Source of the DNA: a virus | Virus record (IMG/VR): IMGVR_UViG_3300007640_000156 | Coordinates: 1 to 29,523 of that record | Reading direction: 5' to 3' (one strand) | Length of the DNA stretch: 29,523 nt | Notes under the pieces: generated by a model | Told to the model about the DNA's origin: nothing | Database searches by the model: none | The model's input: only the letters and a program-made list of their open reading frames with translations | Made by a program: the position numbers and the translations under genes | Shown: piece by piece, positions 2,303-28,126 of the stretch | How the letters are laid out: the number at the start of each line of letters is the position of its first letter | Numbering within the stretch: the first letter of the stretch is position 1

Positions 2303-2647
2303 ATGGCTACAGCAGAGGAGAAAATCGCAGAGGTCAAGAAGGTCTCCGCGATTGTCAAGCAGGAGTACACAGTCGAAAACGGTCAGAACATCGAGACGAC
2401 TGAGTACGCCAACGGCACCATCAAACGGCAGGTTCTGCACAAGGAACACCCGAAGTTCAAGTCCGCTGAAGAAGTGGCACGTGAAGGTAATACCGCTGAA
2501 CAGCTCGCGATTGCAGATTTGCAGGCGCAGGTAGCGGCCCTCACGGAGGCACTCAAGCAGGGCTCCGGTGACTCGACCGGCGACGACGGGGCTGCAACCA
2601 AGAAGGACGCCAAGGGCAAAGGCAAGGCCGAGCCCAAGGCTGACTAA
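2303..2647 (+). CDS. Small charged protein between portal and scaffold
   Basis: 114 aa. It starts 2 nt after the portal stop, with GAGGAG inside the portal end as ribosome-binding site, and its TAA overlaps the next ATG (TAATG), so it is embedded in a coupled operon. The C-terminal third is a low-complexity Gly/Asp/Lys tail (KGKGKAEPKAD), and residues 65-88 look like a short amphipathic helix. I do not recognise the family. Position suggests a head-assembly accessory or virion decoration role, but nothing in the sequence proves that. Confidence 0.75.
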   Translation: MATAEEKIAEVKKVSAIVKQEYTVENGQNIETTEYANGTIKRQVLHKEHPKFKSAEEVAREGNTAEQLAIADLQAQVAALTEALKQGSGDSTGDDGAATKKDAKGKGKAEPKAD

Positions 2648-3564
2648 TGGTTGAGCGCGTTGTCATGCAGGCTGCCGACCCTGAAGCATCCGAAGAGGCC
2701 AAGAAGAAGGCCGACGAGGAAGCCCTAAAGGCCGGCGAGCAGGTGGACATCTCGGGAACCAAGCGGAATGCTGACGGTTCCGAGGAGTCCGTGGCCGTAG
2801 AGGCGGATGTCAAAGAAGAAGAGAAGGACGACATTGCCGGCGCGGCAGCCGAAGCCCAGCTCGACGTACCCGAGAAGTTCCAAAACGAGGACGGCTCGCT
2901 GAACGTCGAGGCCCTGTTGAAGTCTCAGCAGGAACTCGAGAAGCAGTTCACGCAGGAACGCCAGAACCAGGAGAAGGCTGATGAGTCTACTACTGAGAAG
3001 GCGGAGGAAAGCGAAGAAACTAGCGAAGAGGCTGGGACTGAAGCTGGGGAATCTAAGGAACAGGTCGTCGTCCGTGCGCGTGAAGAGTTTATCAAAGACG
3101 GCAAACTCTCCGAAGAGACATACAAGGGCCTTGAGGCTTCAGGCTATACGAAGGACGAAGTCGATACCTACATCAAAGGGCTCGTAGCTCAGGCTGCCGA
3201 AGTCCAGCAGCAGGTGTTGGGTCCCATCGGTGGTATCGAAGAGTACGACAAGCTGGTCGATTGGGGCAACGACAACTTCACGGACGAAGAGAAGAAGGAG
3301 TTTAACGACGCCGTCTTCGGTGAGGATGTGAAGCTGGCGAAAGCCACCGTTGCCGCGGCCTATGCCCGCTACCAGCGTGAAGCCGACGTTGAGCCCGAGA
3401 AGGTCCTCGAAGGCGGCCTCAGTCAGGACGCCGGCGAAGGCTATGCTTCTCAGGCAGAGATGCTGCGAGACATGGCGAAGCCCGAGTACAAGACTGACCC
3501 TGCATTCCGTAACAAAGTATCGCGGAAGATTGCTCGGGCCAAAGTCAACCTGTTCGAGCAATAG
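2647..3564 (+). CDS. Capsid assembly scaffolding protein (T7 gp9-like)
   Basis: 305 aa, strongly acidic and helical with long Glu/Lys-rich stretches (residues about 5-125), as in scaffolding proteins that fill the procapsid core and leave before DNA entry. The C-terminal part near residues 262-300 (GYASQAEMLRDMAKPEYKTD, then FRNKVSRKIARA) matches the conserved end of T7-type scaffolds that contacts the coat protein. It lies between portal and coat genes as in T7. The ATG overlaps the preceding stop by one base. Length is similar to T7 gp9 (about 307 aa). Confidence 0.9.
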   Translation: MVERVVMQAADPEASEEAKKKADEEALKAGEQVDISGTKRNADGSEESVAVEADVKEEEKDDIAGAAAEAQLDVPEKFQNEDGSLNVEALLKSQQELEKQFTQERQNQEKADESTTEKAEESEETSEEAGTEAGESKEQVVVRAREEFIKDGKLSEETYKGLEASGYTKDEVDTYIKGLVAQAAEVQQQVLGPIGGIEEYDKLVDWGNDNFTDEEKKEFNDAVFGEDVKLAKATVAAAYARYQREADVEPEKVLEGGLSQDAGEGYASQAEMLRDMAKPEYKTDPAFRNKVSRKIARAKVNLFEQ

Positions 3565-3566
3565 CC

Positions 3567-3974
3567 GTGAAGTTCTCCGTTCGCCGCACCGACGATGAAG
3601 CTGCAGTTGAAGCACTGCATACACTCATCTTCCCGCTGGATGAATGGGAGGACGCCGACGCCATGTGGCTCGTGTGGGACCCCTCAGGTACCCCTGTAGG
3701 GTTCTGCACTGCCCGCAAGCTGAAGCAAGAGGACGCAGTGTTCCTCGCTCGAGCCGGCGTACTGCCATGTGCTCGAGGTCACAAACTACAACGGAGGTTG
3801 CTGCAGGTTCGGGAGAGCTGGGCACGTAAGCTAGGCGTGGAGGTCTGCATCACATACGTGCTCCATTCAAACTTCCCGAGCCTCGCGAACCTCATCAAGA
3901 GCGGGTACGAAATGTACAAGCCGCCATGGAAATACGCAGGCGACGTACAGTACCTGCAGAAGTCCCTCCGGTAG
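3567..3974 (+). CDS. GNAT-fold acetyltransferase-like protein in the capsid operon
   Basis: 135 aa with a GTG start 2 nt after the scaffold stop. A GNAT-like pattern is visible: a strand (GTPVGFCTARKL, residues 41-52), then VLPCARGHKLQRRLLQVRE (about 69-87), which resembles acetyl-CoA-binding motif A (RGxGxGxxLL), and a late NFPSLANLIKSGYEMY segment like the GNAT C-terminal N...GF/GY element. The motif-A glycine pair is degenerate (RGHKL), so catalysis is uncertain. T7 has no gene here, so this is an insertion between scaffold and coat. It could modify a virion or host protein, or be a structural paralogue of the gp13-like protein at 8058. The fold call is moderately sure; the function is open. 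Confidence 0.7.
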   Translation: MKFSVRRTDDEAAVEALHTLIFPLDEWEDADAMWLVWDPSGTPVGFCTARKLKQEDAVFLARAGVLPCARGHKLQRRLLQVRESWARKLGVEVCITYVLHSNFPSLANLIKSGYEMYKPPWKYAGDVQYLQKSLR

Positions 3975-4179: not shown

Positions 4180-5133
4180 GTGGCTAACGCAACTGTCTCG
4201 CGCCTCGGTCAAGTCAAGGCCGCTGGTAGCGAGTTTGCGCTTTTCCTGCAGCAGTTCGGTGGTGAGACGCTGACGTCGTTCAACGCCAACACCATCCTGA
4301 AACCGCTGCTGCGGTGGCGCAACATCTCGAACGGGCGTACTGCATCGTTCCCGGTAATCCACAACGCAAGTGGTGGTTACCACACGCCCGGCGAAGAAAT
4401 TGTCGGCAACGCAATTCAGCACAACGAGCTGACCGTAACCGCAGATGACCTGCTCATCTCGGATGTCTTCATCGCTAACATCGACGAGGCAATGAACCAC
4501 TACGAAGTACGTGCACCGTACTCCGAAAAGCTGGGCGCATTCCTCGGTGAGAGCCTCGACAAGAACCTGTCGCGCTGTATCTACCGCGCAACGGCTGCTG
4601 CCGAGCTGTTCGCTGGTGACGGTGGTGGTACGCAGTTGACCAACGCTAACTACGACACCGTAGCTACTACGTTGGCCGGCGGCATCTACGACGCCAAGCG
4701 CACCATGGAAGAGGCGAAACTGCCGGTGGACAGCACTCCTGTCTACGCTGCATTCCAGCCGCTCGAGTGGTACATGCTGGCACAGGAAGACACGCTGGTC
4801 CTGAACAAGGACGTAGACGGCGACGGCTCGTACAGCAAAGGCACCCTCAACATGATTGGTGGTGTGAAAGTGCTGAAGAGCAACAACCTGCGCTGGGGCA
4901 ACAACGACGCCAACGTCGGTCCGACGACCGACCTGACGAAGTACGACGCTGACATGTCCAACACTGTCGGCTGCGTGTTCACTCAGGACGCCGTTGCTTC
5001 TGTCCAGTTGCTGGGCCTCGCTCTCGAAAGCGATTACGACATCCGCCGTCAGGGCACCCTGATGGTTGGTAAGTACGCTATCGGCCACAGCGAGTTCCTG
5101 CCGAAAGCGGCTGTTGCACTAAACACCGCGTAA
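4180..5133 (+). CDS. Major capsid protein (T7 gp10-like)
   Basis: 317 aa. The N-terminus (MANATVSRLGQVKAAGSEFA) and the segments LFLQQFGGETLTSFNAN, GRTASFPVIHNASGGYHTPG and HNELTVTADDLLISDVFIAN are typical of T7-family coat proteins with the HK97 fold, which form the icosahedral shell. It is somewhat shorter than T7 gp10A (about 345 aa) and shows no gp10B-like frameshift extension. The start is GTG at 4180, supported by a strong AAAGGAG 9 nt upstream; the in-frame second residue is Ala, as expected. A strong intrinsic terminator follows at 5141-5174, the same arrangement as the T7 late terminator after gene 10. Confidence 0.95.
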   Translation: MANATVSRLGQVKAAGSEFALFLQQFGGETLTSFNANTILKPLLRWRNISNGRTASFPVIHNASGGYHTPGEEIVGNAIQHNELTVTADDLLISDVFIANIDEAMNHYEVRAPYSEKLGAFLGESLDKNLSRCIYRATAAAELFAGDGGGTQLTNANYDTVATTLAGGIYDAKRTMEEAKLPVDSTPVYAAFQPLEWYMLAQEDTLVLNKDVDGDGSYSKGTLNMIGGVKVLKSNNLRWGNNDANVGPTTDLTKYDADMSNTVGCVFTQDAVASVQLLGLALESDYDIRRQGTLMVGKYAIGHSEFLPKAAVALNTA

Positions 5134-5190: not shown

Positions 5191-5796
5191 ATGGCTTACG
5201 ACCCAATGGTCGCTACGACCAAACTTGACGCTGTAAACCAGATGCTCATGAGTATCGGACGGAACCCGGTGTCAACCATTACCGATTCCACCATCACTGC
5301 GGTGCGAATTGCTATCGAACAACTTGACCGGACGGTACGCGAGGTACTCGCTATCGGCTGGCAATTCAACACGGATACCGAGTATGAGCTTACCGTTGAC
5401 GGGTCGGGCGAGATTCCTGTACCCGCCGGCCTCATCGACTTGGCACCCTGCGACCGCCTCCGCGACATCACAATCCGCGACGACAGTGGGACTCTCAAGC
5501 TGTATGACCGTGACGAGCAATCGTTCACGTTCGCTGCCTCCGTCGAGGCCGACGTCATTTGGGCGTTTGAGTTCGAGGAATGCCCTGAGGCTGTACGCCA
5601 GTACATCTTCACTCGCGCAGCTCGCCGGTTCCAAAAGACCAACGTGGCCTCTCAGGTGCTCCACGAGTTCACTCAGGACGACGAGATGTTTGCCGAGCGG
5701 CTCGCACGTAAGCGCGAAGGACGCCGGCGTCGTCGCAACATCCTGACGCACGGCTCGAACCAGATTGTTCACCTGCGACACATCAACCCTACCTAA
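5191..5796 (+). CDS. Tail tubular protein A (T7 gp11-like adaptor)
   Basis: 201 aa, close to the T7 gp11 length (196 aa). The N-terminal TTKLDAVNQMLMSIGRNPV followed by EVLAIGWQFNTDTEYEL near residues 50-66 is characteristic of this family; the Arg-rich stretch (ARKREGRRRRR) near 170-181 is also commonly seen. The protein forms a ring between portal and nozzle. The ATG at 5191 has TGGAG 8-11 nt upstream. It is immediately followed by tail tubular protein B. Confidence 0.93.
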   Translation: MAYDPMVATTKLDAVNQMLMSIGRNPVSTITDSTITAVRIAIEQLDRTVREVLAIGWQFNTDTEYELTVDGSGEIPVPAGLIDLAPCDRLRDITIRDDSGTLKLYDRDEQSFTFAASVEADVIWAFEFEECPEAVRQYIFTRAARRFQKTNVASQVLHEFTQDDEMFAERLARKREGRRRRRNILTHGSNQIVHLRHINPT

Positions 5797-5805
5797 GGAA
5801 TCCCC

Positions 5806-8058
5806 ATGGGCAGCGTAGTAAGTAAAATCATTCCGGCCCTGTACAACGGACAGAGCCAACAGTCGAGTGCGCTACGCCTCCCCACGCAGACGGACACGCA
5901 GATTAACTGCTCGTCCTCCATTGCCCGCGGCGTGTCCAAGCGGCCCGCCAGTAAGCACCTGCAGCTCCTCTCGGACAACACGATGTGGGACGATGAGGTC
6001 ACCTACCCTGACTACATCTCGGATTGGGAGGACGCCAAGTACCACCTGCTCGAGACTCAGACCGGCGAGCTCTTCTTCGTTGTGGTCACAGATGGTGACC
6101 TCAGAGTGTTCGACAAGAACACCGGCGCAGAGAAGACGGTCAACACTCCGGTCGGTACGTCTTACTTGGGCATTCCCTCGGGTACCAAGGCTCGCAAGAA
6201 GTTCTCCCTCATGACCGTGTGCGCGTACACCTTTGTGGTGAACCGTACGGTTGAGGTAGAGACCACTACCCCGCCCTCCTCGGCTCCGGCTGATTGGGCC
6301 GATTGGTACTTCCCCGAAGCATGGGGCGCTGCCTTCGACCAAGAGCAGTACTACAACCCAACGACCGGTACATACGCCGATACCCTGCAGTCCTTCGAGG
6401 ACCTGCCGGACCCGCGTACGATTGGTGACATCTACGAGATTACCGGTACGGACAAAGACTCGTTCTCCAAGTACTACGTTGAAGCCATCTCGACGAAGGC
6501 TGTGACGGAGCGGTGGGACTACGGACTTACAGGCTCTCTCGGCCTCGACGAGACCACGATGCCTATGGCTCTGGTTTATGATTCGGTTGCCGACGAGTTC
6601 ATCCTGACGTACTTCCCCTGGAAGGTCCGTAAGGTGGGTGACGACAACACCAACCCTCCCCCGTCCTTCGTAGGGCAGACTCTCGAGGATGTGTTCTTCT
6701 ACAAGAACCGACTCGGCTTCCTCGCCGGCGAGAATGCAATCATGTCGGTGGCTGGTGACTTCGGTAACTTCTGGCGTCAGACGGTCACGGACCTTCTGGA
6801 CACTGACGTCGTGGACATCGCCGTGGCTGGTTCGCAAATTTCCAACCTGCGCTATGCTGTCCCGTTCAACAACACGATGATGTTGTTTGCTGAGAAGGGC
6901 CAGTACGCGCTGAACGTGGACGAAATCCTCAGCCCCTCTACGGTCTCCGTAGACAAGGTGACGAGCTACACGATGGACCGTAATGCTCGGCCTGTCGGTA
7001 TTGGCTCCGAGGTGTACTTCACGGAGAACCGCGGGGATTACTCAGTGGTCCGCGAGTACTTTGTGTCGGACGATACGAACGCCACCGAGGCCAGCGACGT
7101 CACAGCCCATGTACCAGAATTGGTACCGGGGTCCGTGCTCAGTCTGGCCGGCAGCTCTAACCACGGCATGTTGGCAATCCCTTCAGCCGATTCGGGCAGC
7201 AGCAACCGCCTGTCTGTCTACCAGTTCCGCTGGGGCTCGAGCGGCAAGACGCAGTCCGCGTGGACCATTTGGGAGTTCCAAGAGACAAACGCGGAGATTC
7301 TCTTCGCGGAGGTTGTTGATGACGACATGTACCTCGTGGTCAAACGACCTGACGGCGTCTCTCTCGAGAAGATTGTCCTCGTGCACAAGCAGGACTCCGG
7401 CAGCGGCATTGAGGTTCTACTGGACCGCAAGAGTAACGTCGATAGCTCAGAGCTGTCGTGGACCGGTACGAACACGCGGATGAATCTGCCGTATCGAATC
7501 GACATGGGCGACGTCTCCCACTACCGAGTGCTCCGGTACGCAGGCCGCATGTACGACCCCGACTTGGTCACCTTCGAGGATACGGATGCTGACGGCTTTG
7601 CTGACCGCATCACCTTCGATGCCTCTTTAGGGGACATCAGCGGCTCATCGCTGTGGGTAGGCGCTAACTACACGCAAACCCTGCAGCTTTCTCGCCAGTA
7701 CGTACGTGCCGGCGACGACGCTGTAATTGACGGCGACCTGCTGCTCACCAAGATGACCCTCCAGTACAAGGACGGTGCTCATGTGGGTTACGCAGTGTGG
7801 CCTTACGGGTTCTTCGGACAAGCCGGCGTCTCGGGCGCATACATCACTGAGCGGTACTATCGCGACGATGCTTACGACCTTGGCACCGATTGGTTCTACT
7901 CCAATGCCCCTGAGTTCCACGACGGACACATGACGATTGACATTGGCGGTGACACTGAGGACCTCGTACTGCTGTTGCAGAATAGTATGCCATACCAGTG
8001 CTACATCGAGAGCCTGGAATGGGAAGGCTTCTTCACTAAACGCTCGCGGAGCATCTAA
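5806..8058 (+). CDS. Tail tubular protein B (T7 gp12-like nozzle)
   Basis: 750 aa, slightly shorter than T7 gp12 (794 aa). Family-typical segments are visible: IPALYNGQSQQSSALRLPTQ at the N-terminus, CSSSIARGVSKRP near residues 32-44, and the central block FFYKNRLGFLAGENAIMS at about 297-314. The protein is predicted to build the hexameric beta-propeller nozzle at the tail tip. Start is ATG with AAGGA 9 nt upstream. The stop codon overlaps the start of the next gene by one base (TAATG). Confidence 0.95.
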   Translation: MGSVVSKIIPALYNGQSQQSSALRLPTQTDTQINCSSSIARGVSKRPASKHLQLLSDNTMWDDEVTYPDYISDWEDAKYHLLETQTGELFFVVVTDGDLRVFDKNTGAEKTVNTPVGTSYLGIPSGTKARKKFSLMTVCAYTFVVNRTVEVETTTPPSSAPADWADWYFPEAWGAAFDQEQYYNPTTGTYADTLQSFEDLPDPRTIGDIYEITGTDKDSFSKYYVEAISTKAVTERWDYGLTGSLGLDETTMPMALVYDSVADEFILTYFPWKVRKVGDDNTNPPPSFVGQTLEDVFFYKNRLGFLAGENAIMSVAGDFGNFWRQTVTDLLDTDVVDIAVAGSQISNLRYAVPFNNTMMLFAEKGQYALNVDEILSPSTVSVDKVTSYTMDRNARPVGIGSEVYFTENRGDYSVVREYFVSDDTNATEASDVTAHVPELVPGSVLSLAGSSNHGMLAIPSADSGSSNRLSVYQFRWGSSGKTQSAWTIWEFQETNAEILFAEVVDDDMYLVVKRPDGVSLEKIVLVHKQDSGSGIEVLLDRKSNVDSSELSWTGTNTRMNLPYRIDMGDVSHYRVLRYAGRMYDPDLVTFEDTDADGFADRITFDASLGDISGSSLWVGANYTQTLQLSRQYVRAGDDAVIDGDLLLTKMTLQYKDGAHVGYAVWPYGFFGQAGVSGAYITERYYRDDAYDLGTDWFYSNAPEFHDGHMTIDIGGDTEDLVLLLQNSMPYQCYIESLEWEGFFTKRSRSI

Positions 8059-14679: not shown

Positions 14680-14680
14680 A

Positions 14681-14707
14681 CCCTCGGGGGCCTTCGGGCC
14701 CTCGGGG
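14681..14707 (+). terminator. UUCG-capped hairpin after the gp16-like gene
   Basis: A GC stem of about 11 bp (14682-14692 with 14697-14707, G-U pairs allowed) is closed by a TTCG tetraloop, 1-2 nt after the gp16-like stop. There is no T-run, so it is either a weak terminator or a transcript-stabilising or processing hairpin. The sequence ACTCCCTAGGAAA directly after it resembles the CCCTAGG motif at 18494 and 28437. Confidence 0.5.
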
Positions 14708-14741
14708 ACTCCCTAGGAAACCTCACCCATTTGGATTAAAC

Positions 14742-14951
14742 ATGCCCTTGTCCTTAACAGCAGACGCGCTTCAAACCGCTGTCATTAAAGGGTTGGCCCT
14801 CGCCTGCGTTGTCGGCGGCGGTACAACCGTTGCGGGTAACACCGCGGCAATCATGATGATGAAGAAGGACCTCGAAGTGATTCGATGCGCCGTCTTCAAA
14901 GATAACGACCACGACAAGTTGGAGTGTATCGCCAATGAGCAAAGCCACTAG
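14742..14951 (+). CDS. Holin-like small membrane protein
   Basis: 69 aa with one hydrophobic segment (about residues 12-40, rich in Ala, Gly, Val and Met) followed by a charged C-terminus (MMKKDLEVIRC...DNDHDKLEC). Size and topology resemble the T7 17.5 holin (67 aa, one membrane segment), and it lies exactly where the T7 holin lies, before the small terminase. Holins permeabilise the inner membrane to trigger lysis. No convincing Shine-Dalgarno is visible before the ATG. The end overlaps the small terminase start by 17 nt. Function is inferred from topology and position only. Confidence 0.65.
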   Translation: MPLSLTADALQTAVIKGLALACVVGGGTTVAGNTAAIMMMKKDLEVIRCAVFKDNDHDKLECIANEQSH

Positions 14952-15195
14952 CACTGAGCTCGACGACCTCCACGGTCTACAGGCCGAGGCCCTCAAAGAG
15001 GAGCTGAGGCGACAGAAGGAATCCGGCGAGGGAATCTCCCCAGCCCTACTCGCACAAGTAAACAAGTTTCTGAAGGACAACGGCATCGACCGTCCTAAGG
15101 CAGAGGGCAACGGCCCTGACCTGCTGAACGACGAGCTCGAGGAGCTTGAGTTCGACGAGACAGTAGTTCAATTCGACCAAACAGGAAATTCATAA
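14935..15195 (+). CDS. Terminase small subunit (T7 gp18-like)
   Basis: 86 aa, like T7 gp18 (89 aa). The pattern ALKEELRRQKESGEGISPALLAQ then VNKFLKDNGID (about residues 18-52) is the family hallmark, followed by an acidic tail (NDELEELEFDE). The small subunit selects phage DNA for packaging with the large ATPase subunit. GGAG lies about 10 nt before the ATG. The stop overlaps the next start by one base (TAATG). Confidence 0.87.
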   Translation: MSKATSTELDDLHGLQAEALKEELRRQKESGEGISPALLAQVNKFLKDNGIDRPKAEGNGPDLLNDELEELEFDETVVQFDQTGNS

Positions 15196-16400
15196 TGACG
15201 GTCCATACAAATGCAGCGGGCACTAAGACCGTTGACCCCCGATTCAAGAGCCGCCTCCGCGAAGGCATTCAGAAGGTACTGAAACCCGAAGCCGAGCATT
15301 GGATGAACGGCTGGATTGAGTCCAATGACGTCGTTCAGGGCCACATTGGCTGGAACGTAATGGCCTCGTGTAACGGCGACGTAATCGTTGAAGACGGCGG
15401 AGGCCAGAGCTCTTACGGTGAGGACTTCACCGGGGATACCATCATCAACCTGAGCACCATTGCCCGCTACTACTTCCGTTACGCCCTGATGAAGCTCGTG
15501 GAAGACGGCGACATTGCCAGCTACTCGACTACTGTCGAGAGCATCCTGAGCACCGGCGGGACCCAGATGGGCGGCCTTACGATTGACCACCTGCTGTCCG
15601 GCACTGCCGGCTGGTCTCCGTTCGACGCGTCCCTGTGGGACCTTGGGGACTCATGGTTCAACACGCAGTACACCAAGCAGGACCGCATTGACCTCTTCAA
15701 GGACCTTGCGCCGCTGTCCACGCACGGCGACATCGCGTACTACGCCGATGGTAACCGCGTTAACGATTGGGTAATAGCCCATGTCATCGAAGCGGTCACC
15801 GGCCAGGATTGGCAGGACGCCATTCAGGACGTAGTACTGACCCCGCTAGGCCTCACGGACACCTACCCGACGTACGCTCACGCTCGTCAGGCGGGCCGCG
15901 CCGTCCACCAGCTCGGTCAGGGCGAACTGACCGGCGGTGCAGGAGACCCCCGCGTTCCCTTAGGGTACGTCGAGGGCATCACGCGTGGCACCTACTCGCT
16001 GGACGTCGATTACGGCATCCGAGGCATGTATGGCTCAATCCGCGACCTGCACAAGCTGTTCCGCGCCGGCGTGGTTCTGAATGCCACAAAATGGGGCACG
16101 GACTTCCGCGGTGAGGGCAACTACACCAACACCGCGGGCTGCGGCTTGTTCTATCTGGGCAACCTGCAGGGCGTATCGCCGGCGGTGCCAAACCAGACGA
16201 CGTACATCAACGACGGCAACCTCGGTGGGCGGCTTATCTACTGCCCGACGCAGGATGTATTCGTCACGCTGTTGGAAGCGGGCTTCACGGAGACCGCGGA
16301 CCTCAACGAAGAGACCATCCAGCGTGTCGTGGGTCAGGCCATCACCGGTGAGCAGTTCACCGAGGCTTCCTACATGACGGATGGAGTCTACACAGGCTAA
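15195..16400 (+). CDS. Serine beta-lactamase/penicillin-binding-fold protein with degenerate catalytic motifs
   Basis: 401 aa. Several landmarks match the class C beta-lactamase / D,D-peptidase / esterase superfamily: ALMKLVEDGDI (about 97-107), LTIDHLLSGTAGW (about 128-140), a NDWVIAHVIEAVTGQDW helix (about 190-206) and LTPLGLTDTYP (about 214-224). The active-site motifs are altered: the SxxK position reads STIAR (about 87-91, Lys replaced by Arg), the YxN position reads YAD (about 182-184), and the late KTG/HxG region reads NDGNLGG (about 339-345). Loss of enzyme activity is therefore likely. No signal peptide is seen. It sits between the two terminase genes, where T7 has the Rz spanin gene, and no gp17-like fibre gene exists nearby. 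Receptor-binding, lysis or wall-binding roles are possible. Confidence 0.75.
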   Translation: MTVHTNAAGTKTVDPRFKSRLREGIQKVLKPEAEHWMNGWIESNDVVQGHIGWNVMASCNGDVIVEDGGGQSSYGEDFTGDTIINLSTIARYYFRYALMKLVEDGDIASYSTTVESILSTGGTQMGGLTIDHLLSGTAGWSPFDASLWDLGDSWFNTQYTKQDRIDLFKDLAPLSTHGDIAYYADGNRVNDWVIAHVIEAVTGQDWQDAIQDVVLTPLGLTDTYPTYAHARQAGRAVHQLGQGELTGGAGDPRVPLGYVEGITRGTYSLDVDYGIRGMYGSIRDLHKLFRAGVVLNATKWGTDFRGEGNYTNTAGCGLFYLGNLQGVSPAVPNQTTYINDGNLGGRLIYCPTQDVFVTLLEAGFTETADLNEETIQRVVGQAITGEQFTEASYMTDGVYTG

Positions 16401-16508: not shown

Positions 16509-16754
16509 GTGCCCATATATGCATACAAGTGCCCCAACGGGCACCGATTCGACGCCCTGATGCCCCTGGATAAGCGGAATGACCCTCAGGTCTGTCAGGA
16601 ATGCGGCAAGGTTGCCGAGCGGCAGCTCACATCCGTGCCGACCACCTTCAAATTCGCAGACGAGAAGTACAAGGGCCACGCTGACCCTGCCTATCTGGCG
16701 GTTCTGGCGTTCATCTCGTTGTTTTTCTTCTGGTTAGCAGCGAATGGCGGCTAA
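16509..16754 (+). CDS. FmdB-like zinc ribbon joined to a C-terminal membrane segment
   Basis: 81 aa from a GTG at 16509. This start is chosen because AGGAGG lies 5 nt upstream and the sequence then begins PIYAYKCPNGHRFDAL, the classic start of FmdB-type zinc ribbons (PIYEYxCxxCGHxFE). Metal ligands are Cys and His in CPNGH plus a CQEC pair near residues 38-41; the second Cys of the first knuckle is replaced, leaving His as a possible ligand. Residues about 62-78 (YLAVLAFISLFFFWLAA) form one transmembrane helix, unusual for this family. A start at 16419 would fall inside the hairpin above. The 3' end overlaps terL by 11 nt. A lysis or membrane-anchoring role is speculative. Confidence 0.75.
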   Translation: MPIYAYKCPNGHRFDALMPLDKRNDPQVCQECGKVAERQLTSVPTTFKFADEKYKGHADPAYLAVLAFISLFFFWLAANGG

Positions 16755-18468
16755 GTACCCCTCGTGGGTCGTCGAGAAATCCCACAAGCGGATGTACGAC
16801 GACTTCCGGTACTTCCTTTACTTCATCTGGAAGGAGCTTGGACTCCCTCCGCCCACCGAAGTCCAGTATGACATCGCCCTGTACCTCCAAACGGGGGACC
16901 GGCGCATCATCATCGAGGCTTTCCGTGGTGTAGGGAAGAGCTGGATTACCGCAGCCTTCGCTTTGTGGCTGCTGTGGCGCGACCCGCAGCACAAGATTGA
17001 GGTCGTGTCTGCCGCCAAAGAGCGAGCCGACGCATTCTCCATCTTCGTCAAGGCTCTCATCGTGGAAATCCCCATGCTGAAGTTCCTTGAGCCACGTACG
17101 GACCAACGAACGTCCAACTTGGCCTTCGATGTAGCGCCGGCGAAGCCCGACCAGAGCCCCTCGGTGAAATCCGTGGGCATCAACGGGCAGCTTACGGGCT
17201 CCCGCGCCGACACAATCATCGCGGATGACATCGAAGTACCGAAGAACTCGGGCACGGAGACGCAACGCTACAAGATTTCGGAGGCCGTGAAGGAATTTGA
17301 CGCGGTCCTGAAGCCCAATGGGCGGGTGATTTACCTTGGTACACCGCAGGTTGCGGAGTCCTTGTACCCCCGATTGGAGTCTCGTGGCTATGTGCCCCGC
17401 ATCTGGCCCTCTCGGTACCCCGAGGACCCCTCGGTCTACCGCGGGTTCCTCGCTCCGATGCTCCAGAAGAAGCTCGACGGGGACCCGAGTATCGTCGGGA
17501 AGCCCACTGACCCTGTCCGGTTCGACGACTTGGACCTACAGGAGCGCGAGGCATCGTATGGACGCAGTGGTTTTGCCCTGCAGTTCCAGCTTGATACCTC
17601 CCTCAGTGACGCCAACAAGTACCCGCTGAAGCTGAAAGACCTCATCGTGATGGATACCGGGAAGACCAACTTCCCTGTCCAGCTCGAGTGGGCCGGCGGA
17701 CGCAAGCAGCGCCTCGAGGACATCGAGAACCTCGGGCTCAACGGCGATTGCCTGCATGAGCCCATGTACATCTCCGAAGAGTACGCCGGCTACACCGGTT
17801 CGCTCATGGTCATCGACCCCTCCGGTCGAGGTAAGGATGAAACGTCCTACTGCGTGACCAAGATGTCGAAGGGCATGATTGTCTGCCGGCGCTCAGGCGG
17901 CCTGAAAGGCGGCTACGATGACACCACCCTCAAGGCCCTTGCGGTCATCGCGAGGGACGAAGGTGTCAGCTTAGTGCGCATCGAGGACAACTTCGGTGAC
18001 GGCATGTTCATCGAGCTGTTCAAGCCGGTACTCCGCAAATACCACAGATGCACCGTGGAGCCCTACAAGGTCTCCGGCCAGAAGGAGGCGCGTATCATCG
18101 CCGCCCTCGAGCCCACGATGAACCAGCACCGTCTGGTCATCGACCGGAGCATCATGGAGGAGGACGTACGTCAGGCCAAGGAGTGCTCCGAAGAGGGAGC
18201 CCACAGTGCCCTCTTCTACACCCTGAGCTACCAGCTCACCCACATCACCAACGACCGCGGTTGCCTCAATCATGACGACCGCATCGACGCTCTCGCTGAG
18301 TCGGTGAAGTACTGGAATGAGCAGGTAGGGCTTGACATCACTGCCCAGGAGGAGGCCCACATGGACAAGCTGCGGGAGGAAGACTTCCGTGACTTCATGA
18401 AGAGCTGCAAAGCTCTGGGCGGCAGGGTCCGCAAGAACAAGAACTGGATGGGCAAGGCCCGCCGGTAA
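16744..18468 (+). CDS. Terminase large subunit (T7 gp19-like DNA packaging ATPase/nuclease)
   Basis: 574 aa (T7 gp19 is 586 aa). The ATPase half has Walker A FRGVGKSW (about 60-67) and Walker B TIIADDIE (about 157-164), then a motif III-like VIYLGTP. The nuclease half has the acidic residues of an RNase H-like site: LMVIDPSGRGKDE (about 353-365), VRIEDNFGDG (about 411-420) and HDDRIDALAE (about 509-518). It docks on the portal, pumps DNA and cuts concatemers to generate the genome ends. The start overlaps the zinc-ribbon gene. All key residues appear intact. Confidence 0.96.
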   Translation: MAAKYPSWVVEKSHKRMYDDFRYFLYFIWKELGLPPPTEVQYDIALYLQTGDRRIIIEAFRGVGKSWITAAFALWLLWRDPQHKIEVVSAAKERADAFSIFVKALIVEIPMLKFLEPRTDQRTSNLAFDVAPAKPDQSPSVKSVGINGQLTGSRADTIIADDIEVPKNSGTETQRYKISEAVKEFDAVLKPNGRVIYLGTPQVAESLYPRLESRGYVPRIWPSRYPEDPSVYRGFLAPMLQKKLDGDPSIVGKPTDPVRFDDLDLQEREASYGRSGFALQFQLDTSLSDANKYPLKLKDLIVMDTGKTNFPVQLEWAGGRKQRLEDIENLGLNGDCLHEPMYISEEYAGYTGSLMVIDPSGRGKDETSYCVTKMSKGMIVCRRSGGLKGGYDDTTLKALAVIARDEGVSLVRIEDNFGDGMFIELFKPVLRKYHRCTVEPYKVSGQKEARIIAALEPTMNQHRLVIDRSIMEEDVRQAKECSEEGAHSALFYTLSYQLTHITNDRGCLNHDDRIDALAESVKYWNEQVGLDITAQEEAHMDKLREEDFRDFMKSCKALGGRVRKNKNWMGKARR

Positions 18469-18486
18469 CTTCTTGATTCTTGCGTA

Positions 18487-18500
18487 GGGCCCACCCTAGG
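18487..18500 (+). promoter_or_regulatory. GGGCCCACCCTAGG motif after terL (candidate phage promoter)
   Basis: This 14-mer recurs exactly at 28430-28443, and at both places it is followed within a few bases by a palindromic stem-loop and then a gene. Related shorter forms occur before the capsid gene (GGGCACCCTA near 4015) and before the holin-like gene (CTCCCTAGG near 14709). A promoter for the phage polymerase is the simplest idea, but no T7-consensus sequence is visible. Confidence 0.4.
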
Positions 18501-18504
18501 AGAG

Positions 18505-18577
18505 CGAGATACCTCTAAAGAGACACCTAAGGGGAACCCTAAGGGGGAACCTTAGGAGCTCTTTAGGGGGACTCTCG
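18505..18577 (+). repeat. Large stem-loop built of CCTAAGG/CTAAAG palindromic repeats
   Basis: Nested pairing is seen: CGAGA (18505-18509) with TCTCG (18573-18577), an 11-bp stem CCTCTAAAGAG (18512-18522) with CTCTTTAGGGG (18559-18569), and an inner perfect 7-bp hairpin CCTAAGG (18538-18544) with CCTTAGG (18550-18556). Units of about 12 bp (CCTAAGGGGAA, CCCTAAGGGGGAA, CCTTAGGAG, CTTTAGGGGGA) repeat along it. It resembles in style the short CCTAAAG repeats near T7 ends, and in architecture the element at 28441-28492. Confidence 0.65.
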
Positions 18578-18628
18578 ATTCCCTGCTTACTGCTGAACTA
18601 CTACTGACTACCAGAATGGGAGTTACCT

Positions 18629-18907
18629 ATGTATGCATTCATCATGGGTATACACCTATGGTGGGCTGTACCCGAGATGCCCCCTGCGAGTATCGCTGGG
18701 TATTGTGTGTACCGCAGGGATGCCTCTCAGGGCTCTCTGGACTACCTCAGGTACGACTGTGTGTCGGCCCCTGAGAGGTCCTATACGCTGCCGGCAGACT
18801 ACACCAACTTCTGCTGGAAGGTGTCCACCGTGGAACTCTCGCCGGCACTGCCAGAGTCTGAGTTGTCTCACGCGGTGTGCCCCGGAGAGACCATGTGTCA
18901 TCAGTAG
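18629..18907 (+). CDS. Small fibronectin type III-like protein
   Basis: 92 aa, starting at ATG 18629 with GGGAG 6 nt upstream. After a hydrophobic N-terminus (FIMGIHLWWAV) the sequence reads IAGYCVYRRDASQGSLDY, a Thr/Pro turn, NFCWKVSTVELS and SELSHAVC, which follows the strand pattern of a single fibronectin type III domain (GYxVYR ... YxWKVxAV ... ESxxSxxVC). Such domains occur in phage virion and adhesion proteins. It is downstream of terL and before the gene-free terminal region. A competing frame starting at 18633 overlaps almost completely and shows no such pattern, so it is rejected. Confidence 0.65.
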   Translation: MYAFIMGIHLWWAVPEMPPASIAGYCVYRRDASQGSLDYLRYDCVSAPERSYTLPADYTNFCWKVSTVELSPALPESELSHAVCPGETMCHQ

Positions 18908-18916
18908 GAGAACCTA

Positions 18917-19060
18917 ATGGCTCACGCTAAGGACGGGGTGAGAGCCCCCGAGTGGTGGAAGCACCTCCGCAAGTTCAACAAGAGGGCGTACCACAAGAAG
19001 GCTAGGAAGAGCTGCAAGGGGGCCCTGAGGGGGACCCAAATATTTGACCGGAATTTCTGA
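18917..19060 (+). CDS. Small basic protein, 47 aa
   Basis: The ATG at 18917 has a strong AGGAG 6 nt upstream. The 47-residue product is very basic, with APEWWKHLRKFNKRAYHKKA as its core and further Lys/Arg after it, suggesting nucleic-acid or membrane contact. I do not recognise a family. It is the last gene before the 1.4-kb terminal region. Translation signals are good; function is unknown. Confidence 0.6.
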   Translation: MAHAKDGVRAPEWWKHLRKFNKRAYHKKARKSCKGALRGTQIFDRNF

Positions 19061-19354
19061 CAGGTGAACCGCCTCTCTCTCCGGCACTTTTTCCCCCATG
19101 GCCTCACGCCGCAACTGAGCGGGACGGGGCCCCTTTCTGGCACGAACGGCGCACACGCAGCGCCAAGCGGGGCCCTTCAAGGGATTGCGGAACCGTTGCG
19201 GGGGCCGCATGGGGCCTAGAGGGGCCGCAAGGGGCCGCCGCCATGGGTGGCCGTCCGTGAGTGTGTACCTGTTTCGACAGACTCCGGCGGGGCCTCTTAA
19301 GGGGCCCTTTCCGGCTCCGCTCCGGCTCACTGGCGGGGCCCGCTCCGGCTGCGG

Positions 19355-19398
19355 TCCGGCGGGGCTCCGGCGGGGCTCCGGCGGGGCTCCGGCGGGGC
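19355..19398 (+). repeat. Four tandem copies of an 11-bp GC repeat
   Basis: The unit TCCGGCGGGGC occurs four times back to back without mismatch (19355, 19366, 19377, 19388). Imperfect copies are scattered upstream (about 19280-19345). The period is close to one helical turn, so a phased protein-binding array is possible; replication slippage is the simpler alternative. Confidence 0.9.
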
Positions 19399-19486
19399 TC
19401 GGTTCGGTGCCACTATAAGAGCAGCCCAAAAGGGCCCGCGGTGGGCCCGCTCCGGCCCTGTTGGTTTTCGCGTTGTTTTCACACCA

Positions 19487-19690
19487 TGCAAATCGCCTGA
19501 AACCCGCCAGGGGCCTACGTTTCAGCCGTTTTGGGTCTCGTTAAAACGCTGTTATAGCACCACTGCAAATCGCCTGAAAGGCCCGCCCGGTAAGGCTTTC
19601 AGCCGTTTTGCGTACCACGCAACAGCGCCGTTTAACGCACTGCTGACGCGCTGAGAGCCTTACGGGGCCTACGTTTCAGCAGTTCACTAC
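19487..19690 (+). repeat. Imperfect 77-bp tandem repeat, about three copies
   Basis: TGCAAATCGCCTGAAA is at 19487-19502 and again at 19564-19579, while TTTCAGCCGTTTTG is at 19520-19533 and 19597-19610, both with an offset of exactly 77 bp. A third, degenerate copy continues at the same offset (TTTCAGC at 19674). Each unit contains an inverted pair CTGAAA...TTTCAG able to form a hairpin. Candidate roles are a packaging or end-processing signal, a replication origin iteron, or a regulatory array. Confidence 0.8.
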
Positions 19691-19718
19691 CTGCAAACAT
19701 AGCAGAACAGCCCAAAAC

Positions 19719-19749
19719 GGCCCAAAAAGGGCCCAATTGGTTATTTTTT
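19719..19749 (+). terminator. Hairpin plus T-rich tail in terminal region
   Basis: GGCCC-AAAAA-GGGCC (19719-19733) is followed after several bases by a T-rich tract ending in six Ts (19744-19749). The gap before the T-run makes it weaker than the next element. It could end late transcription. Confidence 0.45.
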
Positions 19750-19790
19750 GACCAGCAAAACTGCGGAAATCGTCCCGCTAGTGGGCCCTT

Positions 19791-19814
19791 TTGGGCCTAT
19801 CGGCCAATTTTTTT
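19791..19814 (+). terminator. Rho-independent terminator ending the late region
   Basis: A stem TTGG(G)CC / GGCCAA with one bulged base and a TATC loop is followed directly by seven Ts (19808-19814). It lies downstream of all late genes and upstream of the early region, a fitting place to stop late transcription before it enters the early genes. Confidence 0.7.
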
Positions 19815-19878
19815 GCATCCGTAAGCTGCTGTTTCTAGGGGACTTTGTAAAAAAGTTTGAAAATATCGCCCGAATTGC

Positions 19879-19906
19879 TTGCACTCGCGGGAAATATCCT
19901 TACATT
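19879..19906 (+). promoter_or_regulatory. Possible sigma70-type early promoter
   Basis: TTGCAC, a 16-bp spacer and TACATT are found in an AT-richer stretch downstream of the terminator at 19814 and upstream of the early operon. Match to consensus is only partial (3/6 and 4/6). Position fits early transcription by the host polymerase; no better candidate was seen between 19815 and 20460. Confidence 0.35.
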
Positions 19907-20320
19907 GCTCACCAACGGCGGCGGCCACGAAACAGCGCGACCAAGGGGACAGCCCAAGGCGATGCAAGAGTTTCGGAACCGCTCACCGTGAGGGGCTCAT
20001 AAGCCGGACCCAAGTCCGCTGAGAATCTCGCTCCGGCTTCGTAGGCCGGACCAAGGCCACCGGACCGACAGACGGTGAGTCTCAGACCAGCTACCAGCGA
20101 TTGAGCTTTGGACCGCAGCCAGTAGGGCCGCGGCGCTGAGGGATTGCAAGGGGCTGGCGTGACAATCTCAGAATCCGAGCCCGAAACACACCAATGACGG
20201 GCCGCACATGGCAGGGGCCGAGTGTGATTCTGAGGGAACCCGTCAGCTAGGCATGGCCGAGCCTTGCATGAATACCAGCGCAGGAAATCCATTTAGGTAC
20301 TGAGTCAACTAAAACGGCGA

Positions 20321-20443
20321 CAAGCTACCGCCTCGCGTGGTTCTGCGTGGGCTGAGAGGTCCGCGGTCTGCCCTGAGTGACAGTCAGGGCAACGGGAGGC
20401 GGTGGCTTGGTAGTGGTCCTGTACTGAGGGGCCACCACCAAGC
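20321..20443 (+). promoter_or_regulatory. Structured leader with overlapping hairpins before the first early gene
   Basis: CAAGCTACCGCCTC (20321-20334) pairs with GAGGCGGTGGCTTG (20396-20409) across one G-U, enclosing a 7-bp hairpin GCCCTGA/TCAGGGC (20370-20390). The 3' arm overlaps a second strong hairpin (20405-20419 with about 20430-20443). Bases 20405-20409 can pair in only one of the two, giving a switch-like or processing-type leader that ends about 18 nt before the ribosome-binding site at 20461. Confidence 0.6.
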
Positions 20444-20460
20444 TAATTCTGGCTTGATTT

Positions 20461-20474
20461 CGAGAGGTGCTAAC
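20461..20474 (+). promoter_or_regulatory. Shared 14-nt ribosome-binding site, copy A
   Basis: CGAGAGGTGCTAAC ends 2 nt before the ATG at 20477. Identical copies precede the genes at 21044 and 23401. The exact complement lies in the hairpin loop of the tRNA-like RNA at 28303-28316. The GAGAGGTG part is a strong Shine-Dalgarno; the TGCTAAC part is not needed for ribosome binding, so its conservation suggests an additional role. Confidence 0.85.
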
Positions 20475-20476
20475 TC

Positions 20477-20653
20477 ATGAAAATGTTTGTAATTGAAGGC
20501 CATGTGACCTACCGCGGCGTTGTGCGGAAGGTTCGCGATTTCGTTGATGCACGTAACCGCCGCGATGCACTGAGCAAAGCGGTTGACGCAATGGCAGCCA
20601 TGGGCATCCGGCCCGAGGCTGTACTGAGTCTGGAGGCGCACACCAATGGCTAA
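20477..20653 (+). CDS. First early protein, 58 aa, unknown
   Basis: The ATG at 20477 follows the shared 14-nt ribosome-binding site by 2 nt. The product begins MKMFVIEGHVTYRGVVRKVR and continues FVDARNRRDALSKAVDAMAA; it is a small, mixed-charge protein without Cys or membrane segment. It reads as a beta strand pair followed by a helix, like many small early phage proteins, but I recognise no family. As the first gene after the terminal region it would be among the first to be expressed. It overlaps the next gene by 8 nt. Confidence 0.75.
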   Translation: MKMFVIEGHVTYRGVVRKVRDFVDARNRRDALSKAVDAMAAMGIRPEAVLSLEAHTNG

Positions 20654-23385: not shown

Positions 23386-23399
23386 CGAGAGGTGCTAAC
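23386..23399 (+). promoter_or_regulatory. Shared 14-nt ribosome-binding site, copy C
   Basis: CGAGAGGTGCTAAC ends 1 nt before the ATG at 23401. It fixes that start over an in-frame start at 23392, which would lie inside the site. It is identical to copies at 20461 and 21029 and complementary to 28303-28316. Confidence 0.87.
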
Positions 23400-23400
23400 C

Positions 23401-23844
23401 ATGAAAGTCTTTGTCTACTACAACCTGCACAAATCCTGCTGGTCCGTGAGGGCCAGTGACGGCCCCCTCAAGGGCAAGGTGATTGCCCATGCGGGCAGCG
23501 TGTTCTTGCGTGATGCCACCTTCAAGGTCAGCGAGGCTGGCCGGCAGCGGGTGCTGAAGGAGCAGCGCAAGAACGTACACGCCGGTGTCGAGGGCGAACT
23601 GATGGGCCTATATGAAATCCAGAAGCTCCGCTACGAGTTCGAGGTACCGCAGAGCTTCATGCTCTACGCCACCAACGAGGAGTACGGGCGGGGCTACGTC
23701 AGCTACAACCCCTACCGCGGCCCGCACTTCTACCAGAAGGGCCGGGACCTGGATGTACACAAGGCGGACCTCGTGAACCTGCGCACTGACCGGCGCGTGT
23801 ACGCTCGACACATCACCTACCACCCCAAGTACGCTGCTGCCTAA
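23401..23844 (+). CDS. Conserved phage protein, unknown function
   Basis: 147 aa. It begins MKVFVYYNLHKSCWSVRASD, followed by GPLKGKVIAHAGSVFLRDAT and SEAGRQRVLKEQRKNVHAG. This N-terminal block is familiar from conserved hypothetical proteins of phages of proteobacteria. The middle is rich in aromatic residues (GYVSYNPYRGPHFYQK), and it ends in HITYHPKYAAA. No catalytic motif is evident. It follows ribosome-binding site copy C and is thus a predicted target of the antisense RNA. Its first residues (MKVFV) resemble those of the 58-aa protein at 20477 (MKMFV). Confidence 0.85.
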   Translation: MKVFVYYNLHKSCWSVRASDGPLKGKVIAHAGSVFLRDATFKVSEAGRQRVLKEQRKNVHAGVEGELMGLYEIQKLRYEFEVPQSFMLYATNEEYGRGYVSYNPYRGPHFYQKGRDLDVHKADLVNLRTDRRVYARHITYHPKYAAA

Positions 23845-23871: not shown

Positions 23872-24804
23872 ATGAGTGACGCTATCACTTACGGCTCGGT
23901 GTGCTCAGGCATCGAGGCTGCCACCGTGGCATGGGACCCGCTCGGGTTCAAGCCGCAGTGGTTCAGCGAGATTGAGAAGTTCCCTTCCGCCCTGCTTGAG
24001 CAGCGGTACCCACACGTTCCCAACCTCGGGGACATGACGGAGATTAAAAATGACGCACGATTCACAACTCGACCTCTTGACCTGCTCGTCGGAGGCACAC
24101 CATGCCAAGCCTTCAGTGTCGGAGGATTCCGCAAGGGGCTGGCTGACCCGCGTGGCAACTTGGCCCTCGAGTACCTCGCACTTGCTGATATGGCTCGGCC
24201 TCGATGGGTCGTGTGGGAAAACGTCGCCGGAGTCCTTGACTCCAACGGAGGACGGGACTTTGGTTCCTTCCTCGGGGCGCTGGGGAAGCTCGGGTATGGG
24301 TGGAGTTACAGGGTGCTGGACTCTCAGTACTTCGGAGTCGCCCAGCGACGTCGTCGGGTGTTCGTTGTCGGACATCTTGGAACGTGGGCCCCTGCCGCCG
24401 GAGTTCTCTTTGACGGAGCGGGCGCTAAGGGGACATCTCCGCCGGTCCCTACGCTTAACCCAACAGGTGCGAGATTTTTTATGCCAGGAAATCGAGCGCG
24501 TGACCACGAGTGGCCCGAGACGTTAGCCGCACGTGACTACAAGGACCCGCAGGTCGTCATCAACGAGGGCACCATCCGCCGCCTGACTCCGGTCGAGTAC
24601 GAGCGGCTGCAAGGATTCCCCGACGACTACACCCGCATCAACTGGCGGGGCCGAGGGGAGGACAAGTGCCCCAACGGTCCCCGCTACAAGGCGCTGGGTA
24701 ACTCAATGGCTGTCCCCGTCATGCGGTGGATAGGCGAACGCATCAAAACCACGGACGCAATTCTCAAGGAGCAAGGTCATGGACGCACCGCGTTATCTGC
24801 TTAG
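23872..24804 (+). CDS. DNA (cytosine-5) methyltransferase
   Basis: 310 aa with the ordered C5-methyltransferase motifs: I VCSGIEAATVAW (residues 10-21), IV GGTPCQAFSVGG with the catalytic Cys near 77, VI WENVAG near 114-119, VIII QRRRRVFVVGH near 158-168, IX RRLTPVEYERLQGFPDDY near 238-255 and X YKALGNSMAVPV near 274-285. All key residues (Cys, ENV, QRRRR, GN) are present, so it should be active. The segment between VIII and IX, which reads the target, is short, and the specificity cannot be told from sequence. In an early phage operon it most likely protects phage DNA from host restriction. GGAG lies about 10 nt before the ATG. Confidence 0.96.
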   Translation: MSDAITYGSVCSGIEAATVAWDPLGFKPQWFSEIEKFPSALLEQRYPHVPNLGDMTEIKNDARFTTRPLDLLVGGTPCQAFSVGGFRKGLADPRGNLALEYLALADMARPRWVVWENVAGVLDSNGGRDFGSFLGALGKLGYGWSYRVLDSQYFGVAQRRRRVFVVGHLGTWAPAAGVLFDGAGAKGTSPPVPTLNPTGARFFMPGNRARDHEWPETLAARDYKDPQVVINEGTIRRLTPVEYERLQGFPDDYTRINWRGRGEDKCPNGPRYKALGNSMAVPVMRWIGERIKTTDAILKEQGHGRTALSA

Positions 24805-27121: not shown

Positions 27122-28126
27122 ATGCGATTGACAACACGCAGTAACGGTATGTTCGTACTGGAATACCGTGACGTAAACGGCACCCGCCGGCGCAAGTCGC
27201 TGGGTACCAAGGACCGCAAGCAAGCCGAGCAGAAGGCCGGTGCCTACCTGCGAGGCGAGCACGTGGATGGAGGTGTGGCCGGAGTGCACACCCTCGAGGA
27301 ATCCTTACGCAACACCTACTCCCGCATCTGGGACAAGCAGAAGGACGCCATGCGGAAGGCCAGCATGGTCAACGCACTGTGCCGTGATATAGGACACTGG
27401 AAGTTGCACGAGGTGACGTACGAGAAGCTCACCACGTGGGCCGAAGAGCTGCACCAAGGGGGCAACTCGGGTGCCACCATCAACCGCAAGCTGGCGTGTA
27501 TCAGCAAGACACTCAACGAGGCGGTGAAGCTGGGTCACCTCAAGGCGGTGCCGGCGATGCCTCGGTACAAGGAGGCACCTCCGAAGGACCGCTACCTATC
27601 CCGCGAGGAGGAACTCAAGCTGCTGAGGGCCACCAAGCAGATGCAGTGGGACTACGCTACCCAGCGGGGTATGCACAACCTGCTCGTGTTCCTGCTGGAC
27701 ACTGGCTGTCGCTTTGGTGAAGCCATGCGGGAGCTCGAGAAGAACCAGCCCACCGGCTTCACCATCACCATCAGTGTCAACAAGGCCGACAAGCCTCGCA
27801 CCATACCGCTCACATCCAGGGCCCGGCAGGCGCTGGTCGAGGGCTGGCCGGTGTGGGATGCCAGCTCTGCAGGCCACCGGTTCAAGAACCTGTGCCGGCG
27901 GGCAGGGACTGAGGGCGTCACGCTGCACACCATGCGGCACACCTGCGCGTCCCGTCTGGTTGCCGGCGGTATGGACCTGTACCGTGTGAGGGATTGGCTC
28001 GGCCACCGCACCATCACCACGACGGAGCGGTACGCTCACCTGAATCCCGACGCACTGAATGAGGGCGTGGCCCTGCTCGAGGCTGCCGGCGTTAATCCTG
28101 AGCCGACTCTCTCACTTGTGAGATAG
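27122..28126 (+). CDS. int: Tyrosine recombinase / phage integrase
   Basis: 334 aa with the complete catalytic set: Arg in TGCRFGEAM (R197), Lys in NKADKPRTIPL (near 221-224), HxxR in LHTMRHTCASRL (H269, R272), His in WLGHRT (H295) and Tyr nucleophile in ERYAHL (Y304). The N-terminal part has an arm-binding-like basic segment (RNGTRRRKSLGTKDRKQAE-like, residues 17-37), then a core-binding helical domain (about 55-150). It starts 1 nt after the regulator, with GAGG upstream. The tRNA half and short repeats just downstream fit its attachment site. Its position before the RNA polymerase gene is as in T7-like podoviruses with integrases. Confidence 0.95.
   Translation: MRLTTRSNGMFVLEYRDVNGTRRRKSLGTKDRKQAEQKAGAYLRGEHVDGGVAGVHTLEESLRNTYSRIWDKQKDAMRKASMVNALCRDIGHWKLHEVTYEKLTTWAEELHQGGNSGATINRKLACISKTLNEAVKLGHLKAVPAMPRYKEAPPKDRYLSREEELKLLRATKQMQWDYATQRGMHNLLVFLLDTGCRFGEAMRELEKNQPTGFTITISVNKADKPRTIPLTSRARQALVEGWPVWDASSAGHRFKNLCRRAGTEGVTLHTMRHTCASRLVAGGMDLYRVRDWLGHRTITTTERYAHLNPDALNEGVALLEAAGVNPEPTLSLVR

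Follow-up and report, generated by a model that had tools for sequence, protein, structure and literature searches.

A beta-lactamase-fold protein with a degenerate active site encoded between terS and terL of a T7-like phage contig

The virus record analysed here (IMG/VR IMGVR_UViG_3300007640_000156; its whole length of 29,523 bases is referred to below as the window) contains, between terS and terL, a gene for a 401-aa protein that, on the evidence of a family profile and a predicted structure, is a full-length serine-beta-lactamase-fold protein of the PF00144 superfamily, and in which the SxxK motif and the His of the third motif have been lost. The explanation that we put forward, and to which we would give somewhat less than an even chance as a whole, begins with the capture, by a temperate-type T7-like phage, of a bacterial enzyme from the class C/family VIII esterase/DD-peptidase lineage of serine hydrolases, whose gene came to lie in the cargo slot flanked by the two terminase genes. 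The fold and the Tyr of the catalytic region would have been kept, while the nucleophile and the Lys that serves as general base disappeared, as did the His of the third motif and probably the Asn of YxN. The product would be made late, in translational coupling with terS, and as a pseudoenzyme it would bind an envelope ligand (a wall peptide, a glucan or an ester-type ligand) in its former substrate cleft without cutting it, most likely at the particle or the cell surface, where it may partly make up for the missing gp17-type fibre.

The window is linear and its gene order and family matches are those of a T7-like phage (Table 1); it is a fragment of a genome whose size, judged from relatives, is probably about 40-45 kb. 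Among annotated phages, the closest are autographiviruses of Roseobacter (CRP phages), Limnohabitans (YIMV22061) and Caulobacter (S2B), the TerL proteins of which are about 50-56 % identical to that of the window, and an alphaproteobacterial host would be our guess from these phages. Integrases occur frequently in the Roseobacter group (PMC11092137). Several other features of the window were recorded. A GNAT acetyltransferase (PF00583) is encoded at 3567-3974, between the scaffold and capsid genes, and a member of the mycobacteriophage L5 gp82 family (PF25735, 2e-38) is encoded at 23392-23844, adjoining the DNA C5-methyltransferase gene. The stretch of about 2.2 kb on the 3' side of terL (18469-20645) holds no convincing gene and may be a genome end, a terminal repeat or a control region preceding the early/integrase block. 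Residues 70-255 of the gp16-like protein are matched by the gp020c region of Caulobacter phage S2B (L085:15526-16500) and the same protein has a long match in S2B gp015c, which suggests, from sequence comparison, that the N-terminal part of gp16 is duplicated in that phage.

Table 1. Positions of the genes and motif sites discussed in the text, numbered from the first base of the window
Feature	Position	Strand	Evidence
Portal	753-2300		
Scaffold	2647-3564		
Capsid	4180-5133		
Tail tube	5191-5796		
Nozzle	5806-8058		
Internal virion proteins	to 14679		
gp16-like internal virion protein, 1298 aa	10783..14679	+	phrog_6651; tblastn to CRP and S2B phages
69-aa ORF, one hydrophobic segment	14742..14951	+	hydropathy 1.67 at residues 13-31
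terS	14935..15195	+	phrog_891, 3.4e-12
Beta-lactamase-fold protein, 401 aa	15195..16400	+	PF00144, 70.7 bits; AF2 pTM 0.81; PDB matches
SxxK site: S87-T88-I89-A90-R91	15453..15467	+	alignments A1 and A5
YxN site: Y183-A184-D185	15741..15749	+	Y183 invariant in alignments
H/KxG site: N339-D340-G341	16209..16217	+	alignment with 67 relatives
FmdB-type zinc ribbon, C-terminal hydrophobic segment	16509..16754	+	PF09723, 43.4 bits; TIGR02605 over cut-off
terL	16744..18468	+	phrog_38, 2.4e-112; PF22530
DNA C5-methyltransferase	23872-24804		
Tyrosine integrase	27122-28126		

The coordinates, reading frame and fold landmarks given for this gene in an initial annotation, made from the sequence alone, proved correct when the ORF and its translation were checked. 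PF00144 covers residues 49-372 with an E-value of 1.6e-19, and a chance match is ruled out by a bit score so far above the Pfam cut-off of 27. An AlphaFold2 model, for which an alignment of 67 cellular relatives served as input, has a mean pLDDT of 74; confidence is low at 243-271, 301-330 and the C-terminus, and reaches a pLDDT of 88-94 in the blocks near residue 88. Comparison of the model with the PDB by Foldseek gave 336 chains at E<=0.001, with a match at E 3e-12, and VIA-align gave Z scores of 25.9-28.4 among the best 50 matches listed (28.4 over 324 residues), headed by macrolactin acyltransferase, EstCE1, EH7, EstG, EstB and AmpC-type enzymes. The structural match extends over residues 12-386, so that all of the protein except its termini is accounted for by the fold and no room is left for a separate tail-anchor domain. 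The calculated pI is about 4.6, and hydropathy analysis revealed neither a signal peptide nor a membrane segment.

The active site was described in the initial annotation as that of a dead fold with degenerate SxxK and HxG motifs, and both the alignments and the predicted structure support this description, although not every detail of the motif assignment could be retained. In two separate alignments T88 occupies the position of the nucleophilic Ser and R91 that of the general-base Lys, so that SxxK is replaced by TIAR; the serine of the proposed STIAR equivalent, S87, precedes the nucleophile position by one residue. The replacement of HxG by NDG stands, the His being present in 88 % of the 67 relatives and replaced here by N339, with Gly341 kept. 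The Tyr of the YAD string is likewise retained, and the position of the Asn of YxN is ambiguous because the loop is three residues longer in the 401-aa protein: the aligned residue is D185 or R188, depending on the alignment, with N187 and N190 in the vicinity. The Ser and Lys of motif 1 are conserved in 100 % of the 67 aligned relatives (alignment A5), SxxK is kept in all 80 of the nearest cellular relatives (genome scan loci) and also in mycobacteriophage ZM2, and Thr or Arg at these positions was found in no relative examined; the altered TxxR site is known from one sequence. A model with an intact catalytic triad in a different register had been named as the observation that would overturn the dead-fold reading; at the sequence level an intact SxxK of this kind was rejected, as a regular-expression search of the whole protein found no S-x-x-K in any register. 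An active resistance-type beta-lactamase was also rejected, SxxK, the His of the third motif and a signal peptide all being absent. Among the 50 columns conserved at >=70 % in the relatives, 25 are unchanged in the 401-aa protein, for the most part structural Gly, Leu, Pro and Thr positions together with Y183 (G68, L101, G139, Y183, T202, P217 and G341 are among them), a pattern that fits retention of the fold with loss of catalysis. With half of its conserved columns changed, the protein is strongly diverged.

It is important to consider whether such a protein might still be an enzyme with altered chemistry, in which T88 would act as the nucleophile aided by Y183, and R91 and D340 would replace the usual Lys and Gly. 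The exchanges of Ser for Thr and Lys for Arg are conservative, the position of Y183 is invariant and the fold has been preserved. However, the guanidinium group is a poor general base, Thr and Arg occur at these positions in none of the relatives, and the third-motif His has been lost as well, and we regard residual catalysis of this kind as highly improbable.

The ATG start codon of the 401-aa gene shares a base with the TAA stop codon of terS (TAATG), and an AGGAA lies about 7 bases upstream. The codon usage of the gene correlates with that of the other late genes at r 0.889, genuine late genes spanning 0.83-0.96, and its GC3 is 0.776, values that indicate a reading frame that is not visibly decaying. 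A chimera or a foreign piece of contig is unlikely, given the overlap with terS and the phage-like composition. The closest sequences that were found are cellular serine hydrolases with 22-32 % identity. PF00144 was detected in none of 85 TerL-related phage records (80 IMG/VR contigs, many of them fragments, and five isolates) in a scan in which both positive controls, ZM2 and the record itself, were matched. Scans of IMG/VR with single-protein patterns returned no relative, and two alignment-based pattern scans returned 102 and 39 pattern matches with zero relatives among them; such scans rely on short conserved peptides, and distant viral homologues may escape them. An exact-peptide scan of bacterial genomes similarly gave 16 pattern matches and zero relatives, and a search for sister phages by way of the gp16-like protein found none. 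In annotated phages, the matches obtained by tblastn were confined to mycobacteriophage ZM2 and two contigs of faecal origin, with identities of 21-24 %. As far as could be seen from these sequence searches, the gene would thus be a singleton acquisition in its lineage. Such isolation, together with the change of half of the well-conserved columns, is what would be expected of a neutral passenger, that is, a recently captured host hydrolase whose active site has decayed by drift and which is heading for loss. Against this, the frame is intact, codon usage and GC3 are phage-like, the ribosome-binding site is clean and the residues that determine the fold have been kept, and we consider a passenger to be a rather improbable explanation.

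The gene lies, as the initial annotation had it, between terS and terL: terS is directly upstream, and a small zinc-ribbon gene, with a GTG start and an upstream AGGAGG, intervenes before terL. In relatives the interval between the two terminase genes ranges from zero to about 2 kb and carries mixed cargo, including SleB-type and M15_3 endolysins, FmdB-like and HExxH-type metallopeptidase-like proteins, PhoH, endonuclease VII and Band 7. FmdB-like ORFs, lacking the C-terminal hydrophobic segment, occupy this slot in five related loci (L039, L046, L055, L057 and L066), so that their pairing with the packaging genes is recurrent. A Band 7/SPFH protein lies between terS and terL in the T7-like contig L019 (9457-9969), and likewise in L020. 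The endolysins in the slot belong to Hydrolase_2/SleB in L035 and L037 and to Peptidase_M15_3 in L073.

The location of the 401-aa gene is therefore that of the lysis slot of related phages, and the protein might belong to a lysis module, as a cytoplasmic late protein that is released through a holin, attaches to peptidoglycan or to enzymes of the wall and contributes to lysis. Besides the endolysins of relatives, the absence of any endolysin family from the scanned ORFs of the window would be consistent with this, as would the presence of a small transmembrane protein on the 3' side and of the 69-aa ORF two genes upstream, which is holin-like only in position and size and gave no informative family match. 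However, PF00144 is the only family over cut-off in the 401-aa protein, which is accordingly not a recognised endolysin, and the loss of the canonical catalytic residues argues against an enzyme. To our knowledge, moreover, DD-carboxypeptidases alone do not lyse cells, and the genome may encode its endolysin outside the sequenced part, as the T7 lysozyme is a middle gene. A part in lysis thus seems to us doubtful at best. The non-lytic cargo of the slot (PhoH, Band 7, endonuclease VII) bears on a further possibility, namely a host-directed cytoplasmic accessory that serves as a decoy and, late in infection or in lysogeny, would sequester a small ligand or a partner, such as a precursor of the wall or a hydrolase of the host. 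That the protein is a standalone domain without signal peptide or membrane segment, and that the window encodes an integrase, would suit this role, whereas the overlap with terS suggests production along with the packaging genes; on balance we think it unlikely.

The proposed action of a pseudoenzyme at the particle or cell surface draws on the missing fibre. The initial annotation had reported that no gp17-type fibre lies between the gp16-like gene and terL, and a scan with PF03906 and comparison with relatives both bear this out. The first gene after gp16 encodes a T7-type fibre with PF03906 in 13 of 13 relatives scanned; the window gave no match to this family anywhere at E<=0.1, the reference records being matched in seven of seven cases. 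The interval from gp16 to terL measures 2.5-9.1 kb in the 17 other loci in which gp16 could be placed and 2.07 kb in the window, where the 401-aa protein is the only one of more than 111 aa in that interval. The argument from fibre absence is by elimination only, the window being a fragment outside which a fibre may lie. A GC-rich hairpin with a TTCG loop was noted at 14680-14741, downstream of the gp16-like gene and upstream of the 69-aa ORF, exactly at the place of the missing fibre; it is possibly an RNA processing site or a deletion scar.

The evidence for a receptor-binding or spike role of the 401-aa protein is circumstantial. In its favour are the missing fibre and the fact that most of the other phage proteins found with this fold belong to tails, one of them having been detected in virions by mass spectrometry: the tailed-phage proteins of this fold that bear a name in BFVD are from mycobacteriophages, four of them being minor tail proteins (the remaining BFVD proteins of this fold are mainly giant-virus hydrolases), and the best phage family match is phrog_382 (8.1e-09), annotated as 'minor tail protein with lysin activity'. 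Against it, the protein has neither the N-terminal anchor of a fibre nor a trimerisation domain, and its gene follows terS, where relatives carry endolysins and non-virion cargo. The more specific proposal that a T7-like phage has dropped its gp17-type fibre and turned a dead beta-lactamase/esterase fold into its adsorption protein, receptor binding thus arising from a wall-enzyme scaffold, appears to us improbable.

Comparison with known proteins places these observations in context. With the family VIII esterases, acyltransferases and class C beta-lactamases (6KJR, 7ATL, EstB 1CI8, IS11 7SPN, Caulobacter crescentus EstG 7U1C and AmpC) the 401-aa protein has the whole fold and the conserved Tyr in common, yet these enzymes use Ser-x-x-Lys, exemplified by Ser68 and Lys71 of CcEstA (PMC5131357), where it has Thr-x-x-Arg. 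If the protein is indeed catalytically silent, an annotation as 'beta-lactamase' or 'serine hydrolase' would here wrongly suggest drug resistance or lysis activity. The endolysins of L035, L037 and L073 share its genomic slot but have unrelated folds of recognised families, whereas the 401-aa protein has no catalytic site. With the gp17-type fibres of T7 (PF03906) it may share a function in adsorption, but it has no PF03906 domain and no collagen or fibre repeats, and its gene follows terS rather than gp16. A literature search gave no direct precedent for beta-lactamase-fold pseudoenzymes in phages. The closest phage counterparts are the late gene products of mycobacteriophages ZM2, TChen, Raela and Omega (gp39), which share the fold (BFVD E 2.5e-11 to 1e-10). 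Omega gp39, with its beta-lactamase-like carboxypeptidase motif, was identified as a virion component by mass spectrometry (PMC3706429), and such carboxypeptidase domains have been proposed to remodel the wall during adsorption (PMC5831693). In tailed phages the fold is known mainly as a domain of such large mycobacteriophage proteins (the named minor tail proteins compared here have 651-1,417 aa and Omega gp39 has 629 aa); ZM2 keeps SLTK, YSN and HDG in a domain embedded in a tail protein of 1,400 aa, and its intact motifs in that setting count against the explanation that we propose. The 401-aa protein, in contrast, is encoded by a podovirus, stands alone without fusion to tail modules and has lost SxxK and the His of the third motif; a free-standing copy of this kind, silent in catalysis, in a T7-like phage with no recognisable fibre would, if this explanation is true, represent re-use for binding of a fold that ZM2 carries with its catalytic motifs intact.
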